DNA of 40,938 bases, from contig JAHCML010000003.1 in NCBI GenBank assembly GCA_019192455.1, positions 642,262 to 683,199 of the forward strand, read 5' to 3'. Origin of the DNA: Alphaproteobacteria bacterium SS10 (GTDB taxonomy: Bacteria > Pseudomonadota > Alphaproteobacteria > TMED2). How positions within the stretch are numbered: position 1 is the first letter of the stretch; every line of letters starts with the position of its first letter. Below, piece by piece: positions 1,190 through 14,713 of this stretch. Below the pieces are notes generated by a model. The model did not search any database and was not told the DNA's origin. It saw nothing but the letters and a program-made list of their open reading frames with translations. The position numbers and the translations under genes were made by a program.

Positions 1190-3436
1190 CTAGAAGGTCA
1201 GAATTGTGAGCTCACCGGGATCGGCAACCCCGGTGAGTAGGATTGTGCCCTCCGAGGTCTCAAGCACCAGGCCGCGATTGTTGGTGTTGATATCGATCAC
1301 AATGGCGGGCCCTAAATCGATCACATCACCGGCGTGATAGTCGGCGATGACGTCGCGGCCGAAATCGGTGCCAAAGCTGAAGACATCATTACCGGCATTG
1401 CCGAACAGGGTGTCATTGCCCCGATTGCCAAGGATCAGGTCATTGCCAGCACCGGCGATGATGACATCGTCGCCGATATTCCCGCAGATCGTATCATCGC
1501 CCAAATTGCCAAGCAGGGTGTCGTCATCCTGACCACCATAGAGGGCATCACTACCCTGCCCACCGAACATCAGGTCCTGGCCTAGATTGCCGTAGATGTC
1601 GTCATCCCCGGCATTGCCATAGAGGATGTCATGGCCGCGATTGCCCGACAGGGTGTCCTGTCCGGTGCCGCCATTGCCCTGATCATTGCCCTGGCCACCG
1701 AACAGGCGATCACCATCGGCGCCACCATCGACATTATCGGCACCCTGATTGCCATAGATGATATCGCGCCCGGCACCGCCGTTGAGGATATCGGCATCAT
1801 CCCCACCGTCGAGTGTATCGCTGCCGTTATCGCCCTCAAGCTGGTCCTGGCCTCCGGCACCGACTAGCCAATCATTCCCGCCCTCGCCGAGCAGGAGGTT
1901 GCGGCCCTCACCACCAAAGAGGTTATCGCCAGCCTCACTACCGCCTAGGCGGTCATAGGCGAAGAACACCTCATCCTGGATGGTATCGATATCGGTGTTG
2001 GCCTCAATCACGTCGGCCAGGGTGGTGTCCCATAACGCCTCAATCTCCTCATCCGTCAGCTGGCTGCCGCCCTCACTCCAGAACGGGTCGCCATCGCGGA
2101 TGCGGGTGAATTGGTCGACGATGATAAAGGCGAACAACTCGCCTAGCAGGCCACCCTCAACCGCATCTTCGGCCAGGCCGCCAACCCAGGCATCGACCAG
2201 GTCAACATCGCCATAGAGTGCCTCAAGCTGTGCCGCCAATGCGGCATCAGAGGTGATGTCGGAGAAGCTCTCAGCCCTTGCGAGGCCCAGGGACTCTCGA
2301 AGGTCGTTATAGCTCGCAACGCCGAGGTCACGGCCACGCTGAATGTTGATAGCAGCAAGGTCGAGGCCGATATCCCCCTCAGCGGCGAAGAGGAAGGAGC
2401 GCACATCCTCAACCACCATGGTGTCGACCTCATTGGCGGTACCATCGGCTAGGCCGGTTAGGATCGGATCAATGCCGCCATTCTCATAAATCTCAGTCGG
2501 GTTAAAGAAGGCCTGCTGCAAGGTCAGGTTACCGGCATCGATCACCGATCCATCCTCATTCAGCCGCTGTACCGTGGAGGAGAGGAGGGAATGGCCGAAC
2601 CTGAACGCAGCGGTGGAGAATTCAACCGCGATGCCTGGGTTCACCGACGCATCATAGCCCTCATAGGCCTCAATAGTGCCCTCGCCGACGAGGATCGGTA
2701 GGAACTCGTTAAAGGTGATGGCCTGGATTTCAGCCTCAACCCGGGCGCGGGCGCCGGCAAACAGCTCCTCATCCGTCCAATCTGGGTTCTCAGCCTTCAA
2801 TTCATCAACCCAGCGATTGTGTTCGCGGACAAAGAGCGTATGGAGGGAGGTGAGGGCCACATTCTCTGCTGCCCGAACATCACCGGCCAATACGCCGCCC
2901 TCTGTCTCTAGCAGCAGCTCATCCTCATCCAACGCCAGATACGGCCCATCACCCAGTAAAGACGCGGCCACTTCAGGATCAGAGCTGTAGACCATGCCCG
3001 CATCGATGAAGGCGGTAATCTCATTCGCGTATTCGCGCGGTGTTGTCTCGCCCGTGCCATCCACCGGATCAACGCGGGTGAAGGTAATGATGGCGGGATC
3101 ATCCTCGGTGCTATTGAAGACGGGATCGCCCGGGAACACGATGATGGGGGAGAATTCGGTTTCCCCAGCTTCAGTGAGGTCCAGATCATGGTCGATGAAC
3201 TGGCCCCAGGCCCAGAGGAAGTCACTGGCACCTGCAACATTGGGGATCGCCTCTTCAGTCTGTTCTGACACCACATTTGAGATCAGCCGCGCATTGGGTC
3301 GATCATCGACCATCTCGCTAATGCCATCGGCGAAATCAGCCGGGGCATAGCGCAGCAGGGTTTGATGCACCGCCCCCCAATCTGGTTCATCTTCCACGGT
3401 ACCGGTGCCGTCTACTGGAACGCCTGGACGGGACAT
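1190..3436 (-). CDS. Animal-type haem peroxidase with C-terminal RTX repeats
   Basis: This is a 748-residue peroxidase-cyclooxygenase superfamily protein. Haem residues can be matched to myeloperoxidase: distal His83 within WGQFIDHDLDLT (Gln79 and Asp84 flank it), catalytic Arg188 and Glu191 in DVRAAEN, proximal His282 in AFRFGHSLL, and Asn364 in INIQRGRDLG. From about residue 500 to 690 there are about twenty glycine-aspartate nonapeptides of the GGxGxDxLx type, which bind calcium. There is no N-terminal signal peptide, and the C-terminus is short and hydrophobic (TILTF). Together these suggest type I secretion. The start is the ATG at 3436, preceded by AGGAG with 8-base spacing; the longer frame to 3553 is not needed. 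No ABC exporter, membrane-fusion protein or TolC gene lies nearby. The product may make hypohalous acids or act on extracellular substrates (inference). Confidence 0.9.
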   Translation of the reverse strand: MSRPGVPVDGTGTVEDEPDWGAVHQTLLRYAPADFADGISEMVDDRPNARLISNVVSEQTEEAIPNVAGASDFLWAWGQFIDHDLDLTEAGETEFSPIIVFPGDPVFNSTEDDPAIITFTRVDPVDGTGETTPREYANEITAFIDAGMVYSSDPEVAASLLGDGPYLALDEDELLLETEGGVLAGDVRAAENVALTSLHTLFVREHNRWVDELKAENPDWTDEELFAGARARVEAEIQAITFNEFLPILVGEGTIEAYEGYDASVNPGIAVEFSTAAFRFGHSLLSSTVQRLNEDGSVIDAGNLTLQQAFFNPTEIYENGGIDPILTGLADGTANEVDTMVVEDVRSFLFAAEGDIGLDLAAINIQRGRDLGVASYNDLRESLGLARAESFSDITSDAALAAQLEALYGDVDLVDAWVGGLAEDAVEGGLLGELFAFIIVDQFTRIRDGDPFWSEGGSQLTDEEIEALWDTTLADVIEANTDIDTIQDEVFFAYDRLGGSEAGDNLFGGEGRNLLLGEGGNDWLVGAGGQDQLEGDNGSDTLDGGDDADILNGGAGRDIIYGNQGADNVDGGADGDRLFGGQGNDQGNGGTGQDTLSGNRGHDILYGNAGDDDIYGNLGQDLMFGGQGSDALYGGQDDDTLLGNLGDDTICGNIGDDVIIAGAGNDLILGNRGNDTLFGNAGNDVFSFGTDFGRDVIADYHAGDVIDLGPAIVIDINTNNRGLVLETSEGTILLTGVADPGELTILTF

Positions 3437-3545
3437 AAGCCCAACTCCTCTTAACTCTCTCAATATCTCGATCGACCAGTCTTTGGTGGTCGTCGATTGC
3501 CTCGCGAGCGGGAGTATCGGACAGGGTCGCTGAACGCTGGCTGAG

Positions 3546-3580
3546 CCATCCATTCAGCTTGTGTTCATCTGGATTGATGG
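3546..3580. promoter_or_regulatory. Imperfect 12-bp inverted repeat in the divergent peroxidase/HupE intergenic region
   Basis: The arms ccatccattcag (3546-3557) and ctggattgatgg (3569-3580) match at 10 of 12 positions as an inverted repeat with an 11-base spacer. They lie between the divergent peroxidase and HupE-like genes, where an operator for either would be expected. No regulator gene is adjacent. The assignment is tentative. Confidence 0.25.
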
Positions 3581-8354: not shown

Positions 8355-9479
8355 ATGGCTGCGTCGGATGATGATAACGGTTGGGATGATGAGGATGAGG
8401 CACCCGTGGTTGCCGATCCTTACGACGATCCTGATGAGTGGGATGACGCCGAGGACCTGAAAACCAATGATGGTTCGGAGTTTGGTATAGGCGGCCAGGG
8501 TTTAGAGACCGTCGCCTTGGTACTAAACGATGGCGACCTGCCCGCCCAGTTCCTTAACGGCACGGCTGTTTCCGCAGATAGCACCGGCCAAGAGGTGATG
8601 ACCGCGATCATCGCCGATAGCAATGAGGCGGCCGGTTATGAAGCCGTCGCGCGTCTTGGCTTCACCGCAGATAATGGCCGCCTGGTGCTCGCCATCGATG
8701 ATGATGTGGTCGAGCTGCAATCCTTTGCCCTAGATCGTCATGAGAGCCCGGGTGATGAGCTTCAGCCAGGGCAACAGCAGTTCCTGATGCGCATGGTGGA
8801 TGCCGAACAGACCACCTGGCTGATGCATGTCATCACGCCAGAACGGCAGTTGGGCAGCTTGACCGGCTTTATGCGCACCCTCGCCCAGCAGGGTGAGATG
8901 GAAGTTCTGCAGCCAACCATCTGGCAAGAGAATGCTGCCGAGACACCGGAATTGCTGGCCGTACGCCCCGAAACCGTAAGCCGTGTCGACGTACTGCCGC
9001 ATCCGAGTGGTGAGGGGTGGGCCATGGTGTTGGAGCATCATGAGGATGCCAGCCACGGCTACCAGTTTGATCGTGCAGCCGACGCCATCGATGCGATGAA
9101 TGATGTCCTGCAAGGCTTAGGGCGGCCAGTCACCAGGCTGAATGCGTTCTATCATGACTTGGAAGATGGCCGGTCACGTCAGTTCGATCTGGATGAGCCA
9201 GATCTGGACGGCACTGCCGAAGCACCAGAATTGCCCGCGGTGGAGACGGTGCACTTCTCAGCCATTTTGGGGAACGCCCCGGACCTGCCAAAGGTTGTTG
9301 GCGATGTGGTCCTGGAGCCGGATTGGATTAAGTTCAACAGGCCACAGCCATCAGCCTCAATTGAAGGCACGCGCGCCGTGGTTGATCAGATGATCTATCC
9401 GGTTGGCCGGTCCGATCCGCACCCGCTGGACATGGGCGTGGCAGCACCGGCGGAGCCGCCGGTCGCACCCAAAGCGTAA
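8355..9479 (+). CDS. Uncharacterised acidic protein, paralogue A
   Basis: The product is 374 residues with a good start (GAGGG, 5-base spacing). Residues 1-36 are extremely Asp/Glu-rich. There is no signal peptide or membrane segment, so it is cytoplasmic. I recognise no named domain. It aligns along most of its length with the product of 10610-11785. Shared landmarks are LQP (185-187), GWAMVL (221-226), AIDAM (244-248), LGR (255-257), VVLEPDW (318-324) and IYPVGRSDPHPLD (347-359). It is therefore one member of a family with a conserved core from about residue 100 to 360 and a variable acidic N-terminus. The pair brackets an antiparallel unknown gene. Function is unknown. Confidence 0.8.
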   Translation: MAASDDDNGWDDEDEAPVVADPYDDPDEWDDAEDLKTNDGSEFGIGGQGLETVALVLNDGDLPAQFLNGTAVSADSTGQEVMTAIIADSNEAAGYEAVARLGFTADNGRLVLAIDDDVVELQSFALDRHESPGDELQPGQQQFLMRMVDAEQTTWLMHVITPERQLGSLTGFMRTLAQQGEMEVLQPTIWQENAAETPELLAVRPETVSRVDVLPHPSGEGWAMVLEHHEDASHGYQFDRAADAIDAMNDVLQGLGRPVTRLNAFYHDLEDGRSRQFDLDEPDLDGTAEAPELPAVETVHFSAILGNAPDLPKVVGDVVLEPDWIKFNRPQPSASIEGTRAVVDQMIYPVGRSDPHPLDMGVAAPAEPPVAPKA

Positions 9480-9515
9480 ATCAGACAGTTTGAATTGAAG
9501 CCAGATGCCGCCCGA

Positions 9516-10196
9516 TTACATCTTCGGGCGGCTAGGGTCTGGTGCCGCGGTGTGGTGTGGCGGCTCTGGGGCGCCTTCACGAAGGGCAACGAATTCAATC
9601 TCCGTCATCCGCGCGCTTAAGCTTGCGCCCTCATTCGCGGCCTCATGGGCATAAGCAGCAGCACGAAGGGCGCCGGTGGCTTGAATTGCTAGAGCCTGGC
9701 TCGTCATCGATGGGCCGTTCACATTGAGTGACGCTTCGATGTCGTTGATGTCGCTCAGCGTGGCCCGCACATGGTCCACGAACCGCTTATCAAAGAAGGC
9801 GTCATTGGCCTTAACCGGCTTGGTCATGGCGGCGGCGATGCTTTGGCTTTTGGCCGTGACAGCGGCTTCAGGGGTTTGGCTTGGGTCAACCAAATGGCCG
9901 CCAACCGCGAGTGCTTTCTGTTGAACGATTGGGTTCTGTTCACCCATCCCAACCGCAGCCCGGCCGAGTAGGTCGAGGGCGCGGATCATTTCCCGCTGAC
10001 GGCGAACCGGGGTTTCGTTCGGGCGCTCACCAACTCTAGGCATGATCGCCGATTGCAGCGCGTGCCGTGCCTCGGTCAGGTATGCCTCAGGCGTGTCGGG
10101 GCGGATGGCTTCAACAGAGATGGCAACATCACGATATTGGGCAGAGTTCTGAAGCGCTGCTTCAACGTCGTTTCGGTTTCTGGCGGTCAGGCGCAT
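9516..10196 (-). CDS. Orphan helical protein between two paralogues
   Basis: The product is 226 residues, Ala-rich and predicted almost wholly alpha-helical (for example AYLTEARHALQSAI, REMIRALDLLGRAAVGM). It has no signal peptide and no cysteine cluster. The C-terminal tail is Pro-rich (EGAPEPPHHTAAPDPSRPKM). The start at 10196 has only a weak purine stretch upstream, so it could be slightly different. I recognise no family. It is convergent with paralogue A (stops about 36 bases apart) and divergent from paralogue B, across an AT-rich gap. Base composition resembles the neighbouring genes, so I see no sign of recent import for the gene itself. Confidence 0.65.
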   Translation of the reverse strand: MRLTARNRNDVEAALQNSAQYRDVAISVEAIRPDTPEAYLTEARHALQSAIMPRVGERPNETPVRRQREMIRALDLLGRAAVGMGEQNPIVQQKALAVGGHLVDPSQTPEAAVTAKSQSIAAAMTKPVKANDAFFDKRFVDHVRATLSDINDIEASLNVNGPSMTSQALAIQATGALRAAAYAHEAANEGASLSARMTEIEFVALREGAPEPPHHTAAPDPSRPKM

Positions 10197-10361
10197 GGGG
10201 GCTCTTTGGTCTTGTTATCGAAGTCTTATTCAAGAGCGCGAGGGCGGTTGCGACGCGTTGTGTTCTTATTAGTTAATACGCCGCGCGCCTCGCTTGATCC
10301 GGGTATGAGCGATGTTGATGAAAGTGGCAAAGCGGGCTGTGATCGCGTGGTGCGGCCAAAA

Positions 10362-10395
10362 ATCTTTCTAGGGTATTGTTTTTAAATAGAAAGAT
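10362..10395. repeat. Perfect 8-bp inverted repeat in the AT-rich gap
   Basis: The arm atctttct (10362-10369) pairs with agaaagat (10388-10395) across an 18-base AT-rich spacer. It lies between the divergent orphan gene and paralogue B, a plausible operator or nucleoid-protein site. No T-run follows that would make it a terminator. Confidence 0.3.
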
Positions 10396-10460
10396 ATGGT
10401 TTTTTGGAGGTCCAATTGTTTTCGAAACTTAAACAAAAATCGGAAAAAATACGGAATTGA

Positions 10461-10529
10461 ATGCCTAACTGTTCATATTGCGGAAACGATGATCTTACGG
10501 GCCGGGTTGGTCGGGCGTATCGTAAATAG
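10461..10529 (+). CDS. Possible micro-ORF with a CxxC motif
   Basis: This is an ATG-started frame of 22 residues reading MPNCSYCGNDDLTGRVGRAY then Arg-Lys and a TAG. A GGA lies 5 bases before the ATG. The Cys-x-x-Cys-Gly start resembles half of a zinc ribbon, and the tail is basic. It sits 80 bases ahead of paralogue B on the same strand. A frame this short can arise by chance, so I regard it as a candidate only. Confidence 0.2.
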   Translation: MPNCSYCGNDDLTGRVGRAYRK

Positions 10530-10609
10530 GATTCGCGTTTTTTCTTTCGCTCCTTAGGCGCAAGCTTCAGAATACAAGCGTTCAACACTGATCACGCCCG
10601 CCCTACAGC

Positions 10610-11785
10610 ATGTCCAACAACCCCGACAATTCGGACCCATTTGGTGATGGCCCGCCAGAGGATGATGCGCCAGGCAGCTATGGTGTTCTGACTGAAATTC
10701 CACGCAACCGGCGCAGCCAGTTCCTGGATGATGGCGCGAGCATTCCTGATCACGGCCAGGTGGTGATGCCGGCGGTTCTGGTTCTGCCCCATGGTCTAGG
10801 GCCGCAGCTGCGCGGGGCGGAGATGATTTCCCCCCTAGCCAGCCATGAAGAGATTTGGCGCGGCCGCAACTACCCTGCCACCGATCCCAAAACCCAATCC
10901 CATAACCGTCTCTATGTGAATGAGGAGACGGGAGAGATTGAGGTTGATCGCAATGGCATCGCCCGTATCGATACGTTGGTCCTCAATGATGATGAGCCAA
11001 TTGATCCGAAGCCAGGCATGAAGAACCTGTCAGTTCAGGCGATTGATGAGCAGGACCGGGTCTGGGCGCTAGACCTAAGGATGGCCGAGGGGCGTCGCGG
11101 TGCCATTGCCAAGGAAGTGGCAGAGATCGCCAAACGCGGTGGGATGATAATCTTGCAGCCAGAGCTGTTTGAGCGAAATTCCGGCAGCATGGATGGCTTT
11201 ATCGCCATTGATCCAAAGGCAGTGCCAGTTGTCTCCATCTACCCGAATGAAGAGTCCGGCTGGGTCATGGAGTTAAAGCGCGGCAAGGGCGACGGCGTTT
11301 TGTTTGAGTTTTCATCCGGGGCCAAGGCGCTGGATGCCATGGCCTACACGGTGAGCCAATTGGGGCGAAGTGTGGATTACGCTACCGTCACCTCCCTTGA
11401 TGCTGATGGGGCCGAGATTGAACACAGCATGTTCACTGCCGAAGAGGCCGGGCGGGCCAAGGCCGATATGTTTGACAATCATCCCGAACGGCCAGAAATC
11501 TCGATCATGCTCTATGATCACCCGGCACAACGGTCCGCCGCCAACGATGCCTTGCCCGGCCAGGTTGAGGGGGTTGGCTTAAACCCAAATTGGTTAAGCA
11601 GCATTGCGCGCCTAGATAACCGGGTGAGTGCGGTGACACGCCTTGCTGAGATTGCGGTCTATCCCAATGGCCGTGGGCAACCCCATCCGATGGATAAGCC
11701 CGATGGCCCTAAAACCGATGAGGCTGAGATTCGCCGGGATTTGGGGGCGCGAGGGCGCCTAGTGGACAAAAAATTTTTATATTAG
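10610..11785 (+). CDS. Uncharacterised protein, paralogue B
   Basis: The product is 391 residues, cytoplasmic by sequence, with no recognised domain. It is colinear with paralogue A from about residue 98 to 362. Landmarks are LQP (182-184), GWVMEL (217-222), ALDAM (240-244), LGR (251-253), GLNPNW (323-328) and VYPNGRGQPHPMD (350-362). Unlike A it has a Pro/Asp-rich N-terminus, a Leu/Pro-rich segment near 54-75 (AVLVLPHGLG) and a basic C-terminal tail (RRDLGARGRLVDKKF). The ATG at 10610 has no clear ribosome site, so the start is less certain than the frame. It ends about 94 bases before the fasciclin gene. Confidence 0.8.
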   Translation: MSNNPDNSDPFGDGPPEDDAPGSYGVLTEIPRNRRSQFLDDGASIPDHGQVVMPAVLVLPHGLGPQLRGAEMISPLASHEEIWRGRNYPATDPKTQSHNRLYVNEETGEIEVDRNGIARIDTLVLNDDEPIDPKPGMKNLSVQAIDEQDRVWALDLRMAEGRRGAIAKEVAEIAKRGGMIILQPELFERNSGSMDGFIAIDPKAVPVVSIYPNEESGWVMELKRGKGDGVLFEFSSGAKALDAMAYTVSQLGRSVDYATVTSLDADGAEIEHSMFTAEEAGRAKADMFDNHPERPEISIMLYDHPAQRSAANDALPGQVEGVGLNPNWLSSIARLDNRVSAVTRLAEIAVYPNGRGQPHPMDKPDGPKTDEAEIRRDLGARGRLVDKKFLY

Positions 11786-12483: not shown

Positions 12484-13131
12484 ATGTCACGCAACGCCCC
12501 TACCATCAAGCTGTTATCTGTTCCGGCTCTCCTACTGCTTGGCGCCTGTACCGTCGTGCGCTCAGGCGGGACGGGGGCAGAGTATGGAGGCGTCAGCGCT
12601 GTGCCACAGGACGCCGATGTTGAGTTCATGACCAGCATCGGCCCTGGTTGGGCCTATGCCCGCGAGGGCGGCGGCTTTGTGGTGCGTCTACCGAGTGTGG
12701 GTGAGTTCAACATGCCCGGTGAAGAGCTAACCGCCAGCTTCAGTGATGATGTGCCAAGCACCGCCGGGCCTGTTGATTTCACTGTCATCGAGTATCGAAG
12801 CGGTGGTTGTGAGCGGGGTTACATTGGCGTTTTAGCCACCCAGCCAACCCCACAGTTTTACAAGCTCGGCGACTGCAAAACCCAGTTAAGCATCCTGCGC
12901 CGTGATAACTCTGGCGACCCCGTTGGTTTGTTAGAAACAGCAACCGATCGGCCGGTTTATGCCATCTATCCAGATCGGGTGGCGCTGCTGGATCAAGGGC
13001 TGGCGCCCGCGCCATTGCCGGGGGCTAAGCCGGACCCTAATATTGACCCTGGTGCGTCTGCCACGGCCCGGCCAGCATCTCCAGCCCAACCATTCGAGGT
13101 TCCGCCCATTGGTCGTCTCGAGATTGAATAG
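12484..13131 (+). CDS. Predicted lipoprotein of unknown function
   Basis: The product is 215 residues from the ATG at 12484; the longer in-frame extension to 12412 would bury the signal sequence and overlaps the terminator. Residues 8-22 form a lipoprotein signal, with the lipobox LLGAC placing the lipidated Cys at 22. The mature domain is beta-rich with two paired cysteines (GGCERGY and GDCKTQ) and the segment VDFTVIEYRSGG. A Pro/Ala-rich linker and the tail FEVPPIGRLEIE follow. No family is recognised. Its last 23 bases overlap the likely start of the downstream membrane-protein gene, so translation of the two is probably coupled. Confidence 0.75.
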   Translation: MSRNAPTIKLLSVPALLLLGACTVVRSGGTGAEYGGVSAVPQDADVEFMTSIGPGWAYAREGGGFVVRLPSVGEFNMPGEELTASFSDDVPSTAGPVDFTVIEYRSGGCERGYIGVLATQPTPQFYKLGDCKTQLSILRRDNSGDPVGLLETATDRPVYAIYPDRVALLDQGLAPAPLPGAKPDPNIDPGASATARPASPAQPFEVPPIGRLEIE

Positions 13132-14713
13132 GTTGAGGCGCCACGGGGCAACCCGCCCAAAGATTGCCAAGGGGCTGCCGATCCTGTTCTGGTGCAGCCT
13201 GCTCTACCTGGTGACAGAGCTTGCCTTCGCCGCACAGCTGCTTGAGCTGGCCGGCAGCCGGATTAGTGAGGATCAGCTAAACCGTGTCGAAGCGGTGGGC
13301 CGTAGCCTGAGCGGCATTGCCGTCGCCTTGTTCATTATTGGCTGGTTGGTAAAACGCGATTGGTCCCGCGCGCTTAAAGGTGTCTTGATACCGGTCACGC
13401 TGATCTTAAGCATCGTCGTTGTGTGGGTGATCCAGGAGGTCATTGTTGCGACTGCTGTCACCACGATGGATCTGGAGCAGACCAACCGGGCCATGGTTCT
13501 GGTGCGGGCAACCGACTTGGTTCGTGAGGGACATATTGAGATCAAGTCCCTCGACCTATCAGCGGAGGTGTTACGCACACCGACCGGCCTCTCTTTCATG
13601 GCAATGTTTCCGATGTTGGCGCTGGGCAGCCAGTCGATTGAAGCGGAGATTGAGCCGATCCTGGATAATGCCATTCGACGCTCACTGATCCTCGATTGTG
13701 AGGAGGATGTTGAGGGCATGATGCCCATCCCATGCCTGGGCACTCCAGCCCAGTTTGCCGAGGAGCATTGGCCAGAAATCGCTGAGGGGCTGGAAGAGCT
13801 TTATCAACGCTATGATGAGGCGAGACGCCCAGTTGTCGACCCCGATGCCGCCGATATCGATGCCGCTTTTGAGACGGCCTGGGGGCGCTATCAACGGGAT
13901 ATGCGCCGTAATCGCTTGGATGCGTCGACCCGCCATCATAGACGGGTCCGGACCACCTTGCGCCGCCAGGGGCTCGATGTGCCGGACAGCTGGGCCCTCG
14001 ATGATCAAGCTGGTTTCCGGCGCGCGGTTCGCGACCGGTATATGGAGCAAGCCCGGGAACGCTGGGAGGATCAGCATCGGTTCAAGCCCGAATGGCGCAG
14101 AATTTCACCCGATTTGGGCAGAGCCGGTTTCTTCCGTCATCCAGCAACCTTAGAGACGATTTGGGCTGATTGGGGGATTGATCATGAGCGACTTGAGAAG
14201 CGCCCACCGCCCATCTTGACCCCAAAAATATCAGTACGGGATTTGGCCAGTTTGGTGCATGCCCCGCTGCTTAGCTACATACTCGAGCTTGAGCGGGATG
14301 CACTTCGTGATTATACGCTGCGGATTGATAACAAAGCCTGGGGTAAGCGGTCAGAGAATGCCCGGAAATGGACCGTTATTCCGCCCATGGCCTTGGCCTT
14401 CTCGGTTATCGGCGCACTGGCCCATGTCATTAAAGTTGCTGGCTTTTTTCTTGTCCTGGTGATGCCACGCCGCTGGGCCGTCGGCCTGCCAACCCTGGCG
14501 GTGATCCTGGCCAGCATCTGGGTGTATCAGGAGCCCAATCCAATCATCGATAGTCAGGCCTATCAAGCGCTTGCCGATGCCACGGGCGCGCAGTTTGGCG
14601 CCGCCGTCGAGGTGCCAATTCACTATACGATTCAGGTGGAACGGCACATGTATCCGGTCGGCGCGGCAATCCGGCGCTATGCCTTGTTCAACATCGATTT
14701 CACGGCCTGGTAG
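13109..14713 (+). CDS. Large multi-pass membrane protein of unknown function
   Basis: The product is 534 residues if it starts at the TTG at 13109, which has GAGG 9 bases upstream inside the end of the lipoprotein gene. TTG codons at 13124 and 13133 are alternatives, and no ATG is available near the start. The N-terminal part holds about three transmembrane helices (LPILFWCSLLYLVTELAFAA, IAVALFIIGWLV, GVLIPVTLILSIVVVWVIQ). A roughly 290-residue soluble region follows, rich in Arg, Asp and Trp (WGRYQRDMRRNRLD, RERWEDQHRFKPEWRR). The C-terminal part holds two more helices (MALAFSVIGALAHVIKVAGF and LPTLAVILASIWVY), then a short soluble tail. No transporter or enzyme signature is seen. Coupling to the lipoprotein suggests an envelope complex. 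Confidence 0.7.
   Translation: MVVSRLNRLRRHGATRPKIAKGLPILFWCSLLYLVTELAFAAQLLELAGSRISEDQLNRVEAVGRSLSGIAVALFIIGWLVKRDWSRALKGVLIPVTLILSIVVVWVIQEVIVATAVTTMDLEQTNRAMVLVRATDLVREGHIEIKSLDLSAEVLRTPTGLSFMAMFPMLALGSQSIEAEIEPILDNAIRRSLILDCEEDVEGMMPIPCLGTPAQFAEEHWPEIAEGLEELYQRYDEARRPVVDPDAADIDAAFETAWGRYQRDMRRNRLDASTRHHRRVRTTLRRQGLDVPDSWALDDQAGFRRAVRDRYMEQARERWEDQHRFKPEWRRISPDLGRAGFFRHPATLETIWADWGIDHERLEKRPPPILTPKISVRDLASLVHAPLLSYILELERDALRDYTLRIDNKAWGKRSENARKWTVIPPMALAFSVIGALAHVIKVAGFFLVLVMPRRWAVGLPTLAVILASIWVYQEPNPIIDSQAYQALADATGAQFGAAVEVPIHYTIQVERHMYPVGAAIRRYALFNIDFTAW

Follow-up and report, generated by a model that had tools for sequence, protein, structure and literature searches.

Orphan families are common and are present in nearly every newly sequenced genome. 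In Bacillus, taxonomically restricted (ORFan) genes are real coding genes that lack homologues outside their taxon and form small homologous clusters within it (PMC10003748). A second point of comparison, this time structural, is the PH-like domains of bacteria (PF08000 and its relatives): such domains are known, and one of their surfaces has been proposed to mediate protein-protein interactions (PMC2817789).

The window, that is, the whole stretch of 40,938 nucleotides analysed here, contains two neighbouring genes, called A and B, that resemble the Bacillus families: their products are homologous to each other and have no relative in the sampled outside genomes. Unlike those families, they come from the one genome available for their order, and, at 374 and 391 aa, their products are rather long. 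The pair is another taxon-restricted family, an ordinary lineage-specific duplicate, in a lineage of which one genome is sampled. Our preferred reading, to which we assign a probability of about 0.4, is that an old local duplication produced this lineage-restricted pair and that its products are non-catalytic binding or adaptor proteins. By itself the pair opens no long-standing question; it may nonetheless constitute a new domain family, and it provides a defined test case for the duplication and divergence of lineage-specific bacterial genes.

Both open reading frames are found on the forward strand. Paralogue A (P0001, 8355..9479) encodes 374 aa with a pI of 4.05, in which an acidic, probably disordered N-terminus precedes the region shared with B; paralogue B (P0002, 10610..11785) encodes 391 aa with a pI of 4.8. 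Their third-position GC (0.64 for A, 0.63 for B) and codon adaptation (0.67-0.72) resemble those of the neighbouring genes, which argues for real, native coding frames rather than chance ones.

Compared by BLASTP, the two proteins align with E = 4e-20 at 25% identity and 46% positives over 232 residues, pairing residues 137-359 of A (8763..9431, forward strand) with residues 134-362 of B (11009..11695, forward strand). In a test with 500 shuffles, the local score of 220 lies about 28 SD above the shuffled mean of 41 (SD 6.3). The motifs LQP, GW.M.L, A.DAM, LGR, L.P.W and YP.GR..PHP.D are common to both proteins and follow one another in the same order. The last of them closes the shared region at 9396..9431 in A and at 11660..11695 in B, both on the forward strand, and this tail ranks among the best-kept stretches of the pair. 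At the level of sequence, the homology of A and B is secure, and the colinear paralogues described in the sequence-only reading are thereby borne out.

The homology is confined to the two thirds of each protein that make up its centre and C-terminus, and leaves out the N-termini. By part, the shuffle z is 27.6 for the core, 8.8 for the C-terminal portion and 1.2 for the N-terminal 125 residues; together with a net charge of -20 and -7 over the first 60 residues of the two paralogues, this agrees with the earlier remark that the N-termini differ. A search of the host genome with A retrieves B at E = 1.5e-18 and no other match, the reverse search with B does likewise (about 1e-18), and both full-length and core profiles count two gene copies only. 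The BLASTP alignment, the own-genome searches and the common motifs all support duplication followed by divergence, as had been proposed, and an identity of 25% makes the duplication an old one. With one genome sampled from the order, duplication in situ and joint acquisition of a pair that already existed in an ancestor would look alike.

A possible third paralogue was rejected: the gene in question (L007:15816-16688, forward strand), some 9 kb upstream, looked orphan by eye and was also compared with PADLOC, but is unrelated to the pair (hhalign probability 0.15%). Nor is there support for the two core units being repeats of each other (z of 2.7 in P0002 and below 0 in P0001).

A and B are acidic and probably soluble, cytoplasmic proteins, with N-termini that are variable and probably disordered. 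Neither contains a strongly hydrophobic segment of a kind that would suggest a membrane helix (the top 19-residue means are 0.9 and 1.0). Type I secretion, considered for these acidic, cysteine-free products, was dropped, as they have neither RTX repeats nor a recognisable typical C-terminal signal.

We modelled the shared core with AlphaFold2 on the two-sequence A/B alignment; a full-length model of P0001 (pLDDT 45) was judged too poor to rely on. In the model of the P0002 core (10985..11413, forward strand; pLDDT 69.6, pTM 0.61), a beta-beta-alpha unit is followed by a second unit of four strands and a helix: strands span residues 12-20 and 26-34, a helix 38-51, strands 71-75, 82-88, 92-98 and 105-109, and a final helix 112-126. 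The order of elements is the same in the P0001 model, both models deriving from one alignment and thus not being independent.

The second half of the core (11159..11389, forward strand) weakly resembles part of the PH/PTB/FERM-F3 fold. VIA-align superposes 77 residues on the F3 lobe of the FAK FERM domain with an rmsd of 2.5 and a Z of 7.0, which by the tool's own note is ordinary for models that match nothing clearly; the best PDB match of Foldseek to the P0002 core is also a FERM domain (E 0.016), and neither result is significant. The point of comparison with bacterial PH-like domains is the four strands and following helix that the model shows in this half, aligned at Z 7.0 with the PH-superfold F3 lobe. 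Unlike those domains, A and B have no Pfam match or sequence similarity to them, the score is within noise and the model confidence is moderate. Moreover, a complete PH domain is a seven-stranded barrel or sandwich with a C-terminal helix, whereas only four strands and the helix align here (77 residues, pLDDT 69.6). A viral fold search returns no match at E <0.05. The PH-likeness of the second unit is, on these models, a weak lead only.

That A and B act as non-catalytic binding or adaptor proteins is the most likely role, if weakly inferred: the two sequences carry no enzyme signature, and the fold resemblance, weak as it is, points the same way. A different reading makes them enzymes, of a fold either undescribed or known but very diverged, whose active site would include residues of the YP.GR..PHP.D tail. 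The tail, among the best-conserved parts of a pair only 25% identical, does hold H, R, Y and D, and such a site could be made up of H, D, R, W and Y residues conserved between the two proteins. Against this, no enzyme family matches either protein, the tail comes after the lowest-confidence part of the model, and conservation between two sequences is a weak guide; we regard a catalytic role as rather unlikely.

In the preferred reading of binding or adaptor proteins, A and B would descend from a local duplication that took place long ago in an isolated line of Alphaproteobacteria. Each product would then comprise a variable, probably disordered N-terminal segment, a core of two alpha/beta units and a conserved C-terminal tail that closes with the YP.GR..PHP.D motif. 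The core would hold a partner, and the diverged N-termini may direct A and B to different partners or place them under different regulation. Duplicates that have one function in common and another that differs are expected to keep a conserved core and to diverge at their N-termini, as is seen here.

Neighbouring homologous genes that run in the same direction often encode subunits of one complex. A and B are such genes, and the core is kept in both, so they might form an obligate heteromer in which each product is unstable or inactive alone. The 1,130 bases between them, occupied in part by an antiparallel gene, however, speak against one simple operon, and we consider this arrangement improbable. 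A more far-reaching version, which we hold to be a very long shot, would have A and B join in a new kind of heteromeric complex. The core of two alpha/beta units would be PH-like or of a type not seen before, and the complex would be specific to a deep-branching alphaproteobacterial order and perform a function unique among bacteria.

The sequence-only reading had placed both proteins in no recognised family, and the searches uphold this. Neither A, B nor the antiparallel P0003 has a significant match in Pfam, NCBIfam or PHROGs, and for A and B Pfam yields nothing up to E 0.1. A profile search of PDB sequences with the pair finds nothing up to E 10. Run against 385 class-level and 398 phylum-level genomes, among which the host alone represents its order, the pair profile recovers its own two copies only. 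Reference genomes scanned by peptide patterns, a method that sees close relatives only, contain no relatives of A or B, and none were found in the plasmids, phages and viral contigs searched.

Near relatives of the host were picked by HflK, the best at about 63% identity. One of the families nearest by this measure belongs to an order from which 82 genomes were searched, and there matches to the pair are at chance level. The best of them, a profile match at E = 0.014, was rejected, its frame lying on the strand opposite an MBL-fold hydrolase-like gene and overlapping it. In ten relatives, the region upstream of hflK holds no counterpart of the pair as far as the contigs reach. As a control, a search for HflK in the 385 class genomes gives matches in 325. 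Given this control, and since P0001 alone recovers the 25%-identical P0002, relatives as close as A is to B should have surfaced; the searches cover sampled genomes, and more diverged relatives would escape them.

Between the paralogues, on the opposite strand, lies the orphan gene P0003 (9516..10196, reverse strand; 226 aa), convergent with one copy and divergent from the other. The earlier suggestion that it belongs to the same module as the pair finds no support beyond position: it shows no sequence similarity to A or B, it is read from the other strand, and it has no homologue in the family libraries, the 385 genomes or the phages, plasmids and viral contigs searched. Seven other genomes do give matches to P0003, with per-genome E of 0.002-0.009, but over 385 genomes this is chance level, and four of the seven matches contain internal stops.

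One could still suppose that A, B and P0003 form one horizontally acquired mobile or defence module. All three are orphans within an orphan-rich stretch and all three lack cysteine, whereas at the window frequency their 991 residues should include about 7 (chance 0.0007); zero cysteine is also seen in several ordinary neighbouring gene products. The native composition and codon use argue against acquisition. So does the setting: the window contains no tRNA or Rfam RNA, no integrase occurs among the proteins scanned, and nothing related turned up in the phages, plasmids and viral contigs. PADLOC defence family models give no match of note, the best being a partial match of P0002 to a type II restriction enzyme at E 0.029, which does not count as a defence hit. 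We judge such a module very unlikely.

The pair is flanked upstream by a universal stress protein gene, after a gap of 128 bases, and downstream by a fasciclin gene, after 78 bases. Beyond the fasciclin gene come genes for a possible lipoprotein, a membrane protein and an outer-membrane beta-barrel, then mrp/apbC, hflK, hflC and a DegP-like protease. The membrane protein, a large predicted one encoded at 12959-14713 (forward strand), has neither a confident match to any family nor a relative among 133 genomes of the class; together with the pair and P0003 it makes up an orphan-rich stretch upstream of mrp/apbC-hflK.

In the gap between P0003 and paralogue B, two tiny adjoining frames occupy 10416-10529 (forward strand) and may be due to chance. 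The first starts with TTG, five bases downstream of a GGAGG, and has 14 codons; the second, of 22 codons, starts with ATG just after the stop of the first and reads MPNCSYCGNDDLTGRVGRAYRK, with a CxxC motif. Elsewhere in the window, at 1190-3553 (reverse strand), an animal-type haem peroxidase domain is fused to RTX calcium-binding repeats (PF03098, PF00353), and its product is likely a secreted peroxidase.
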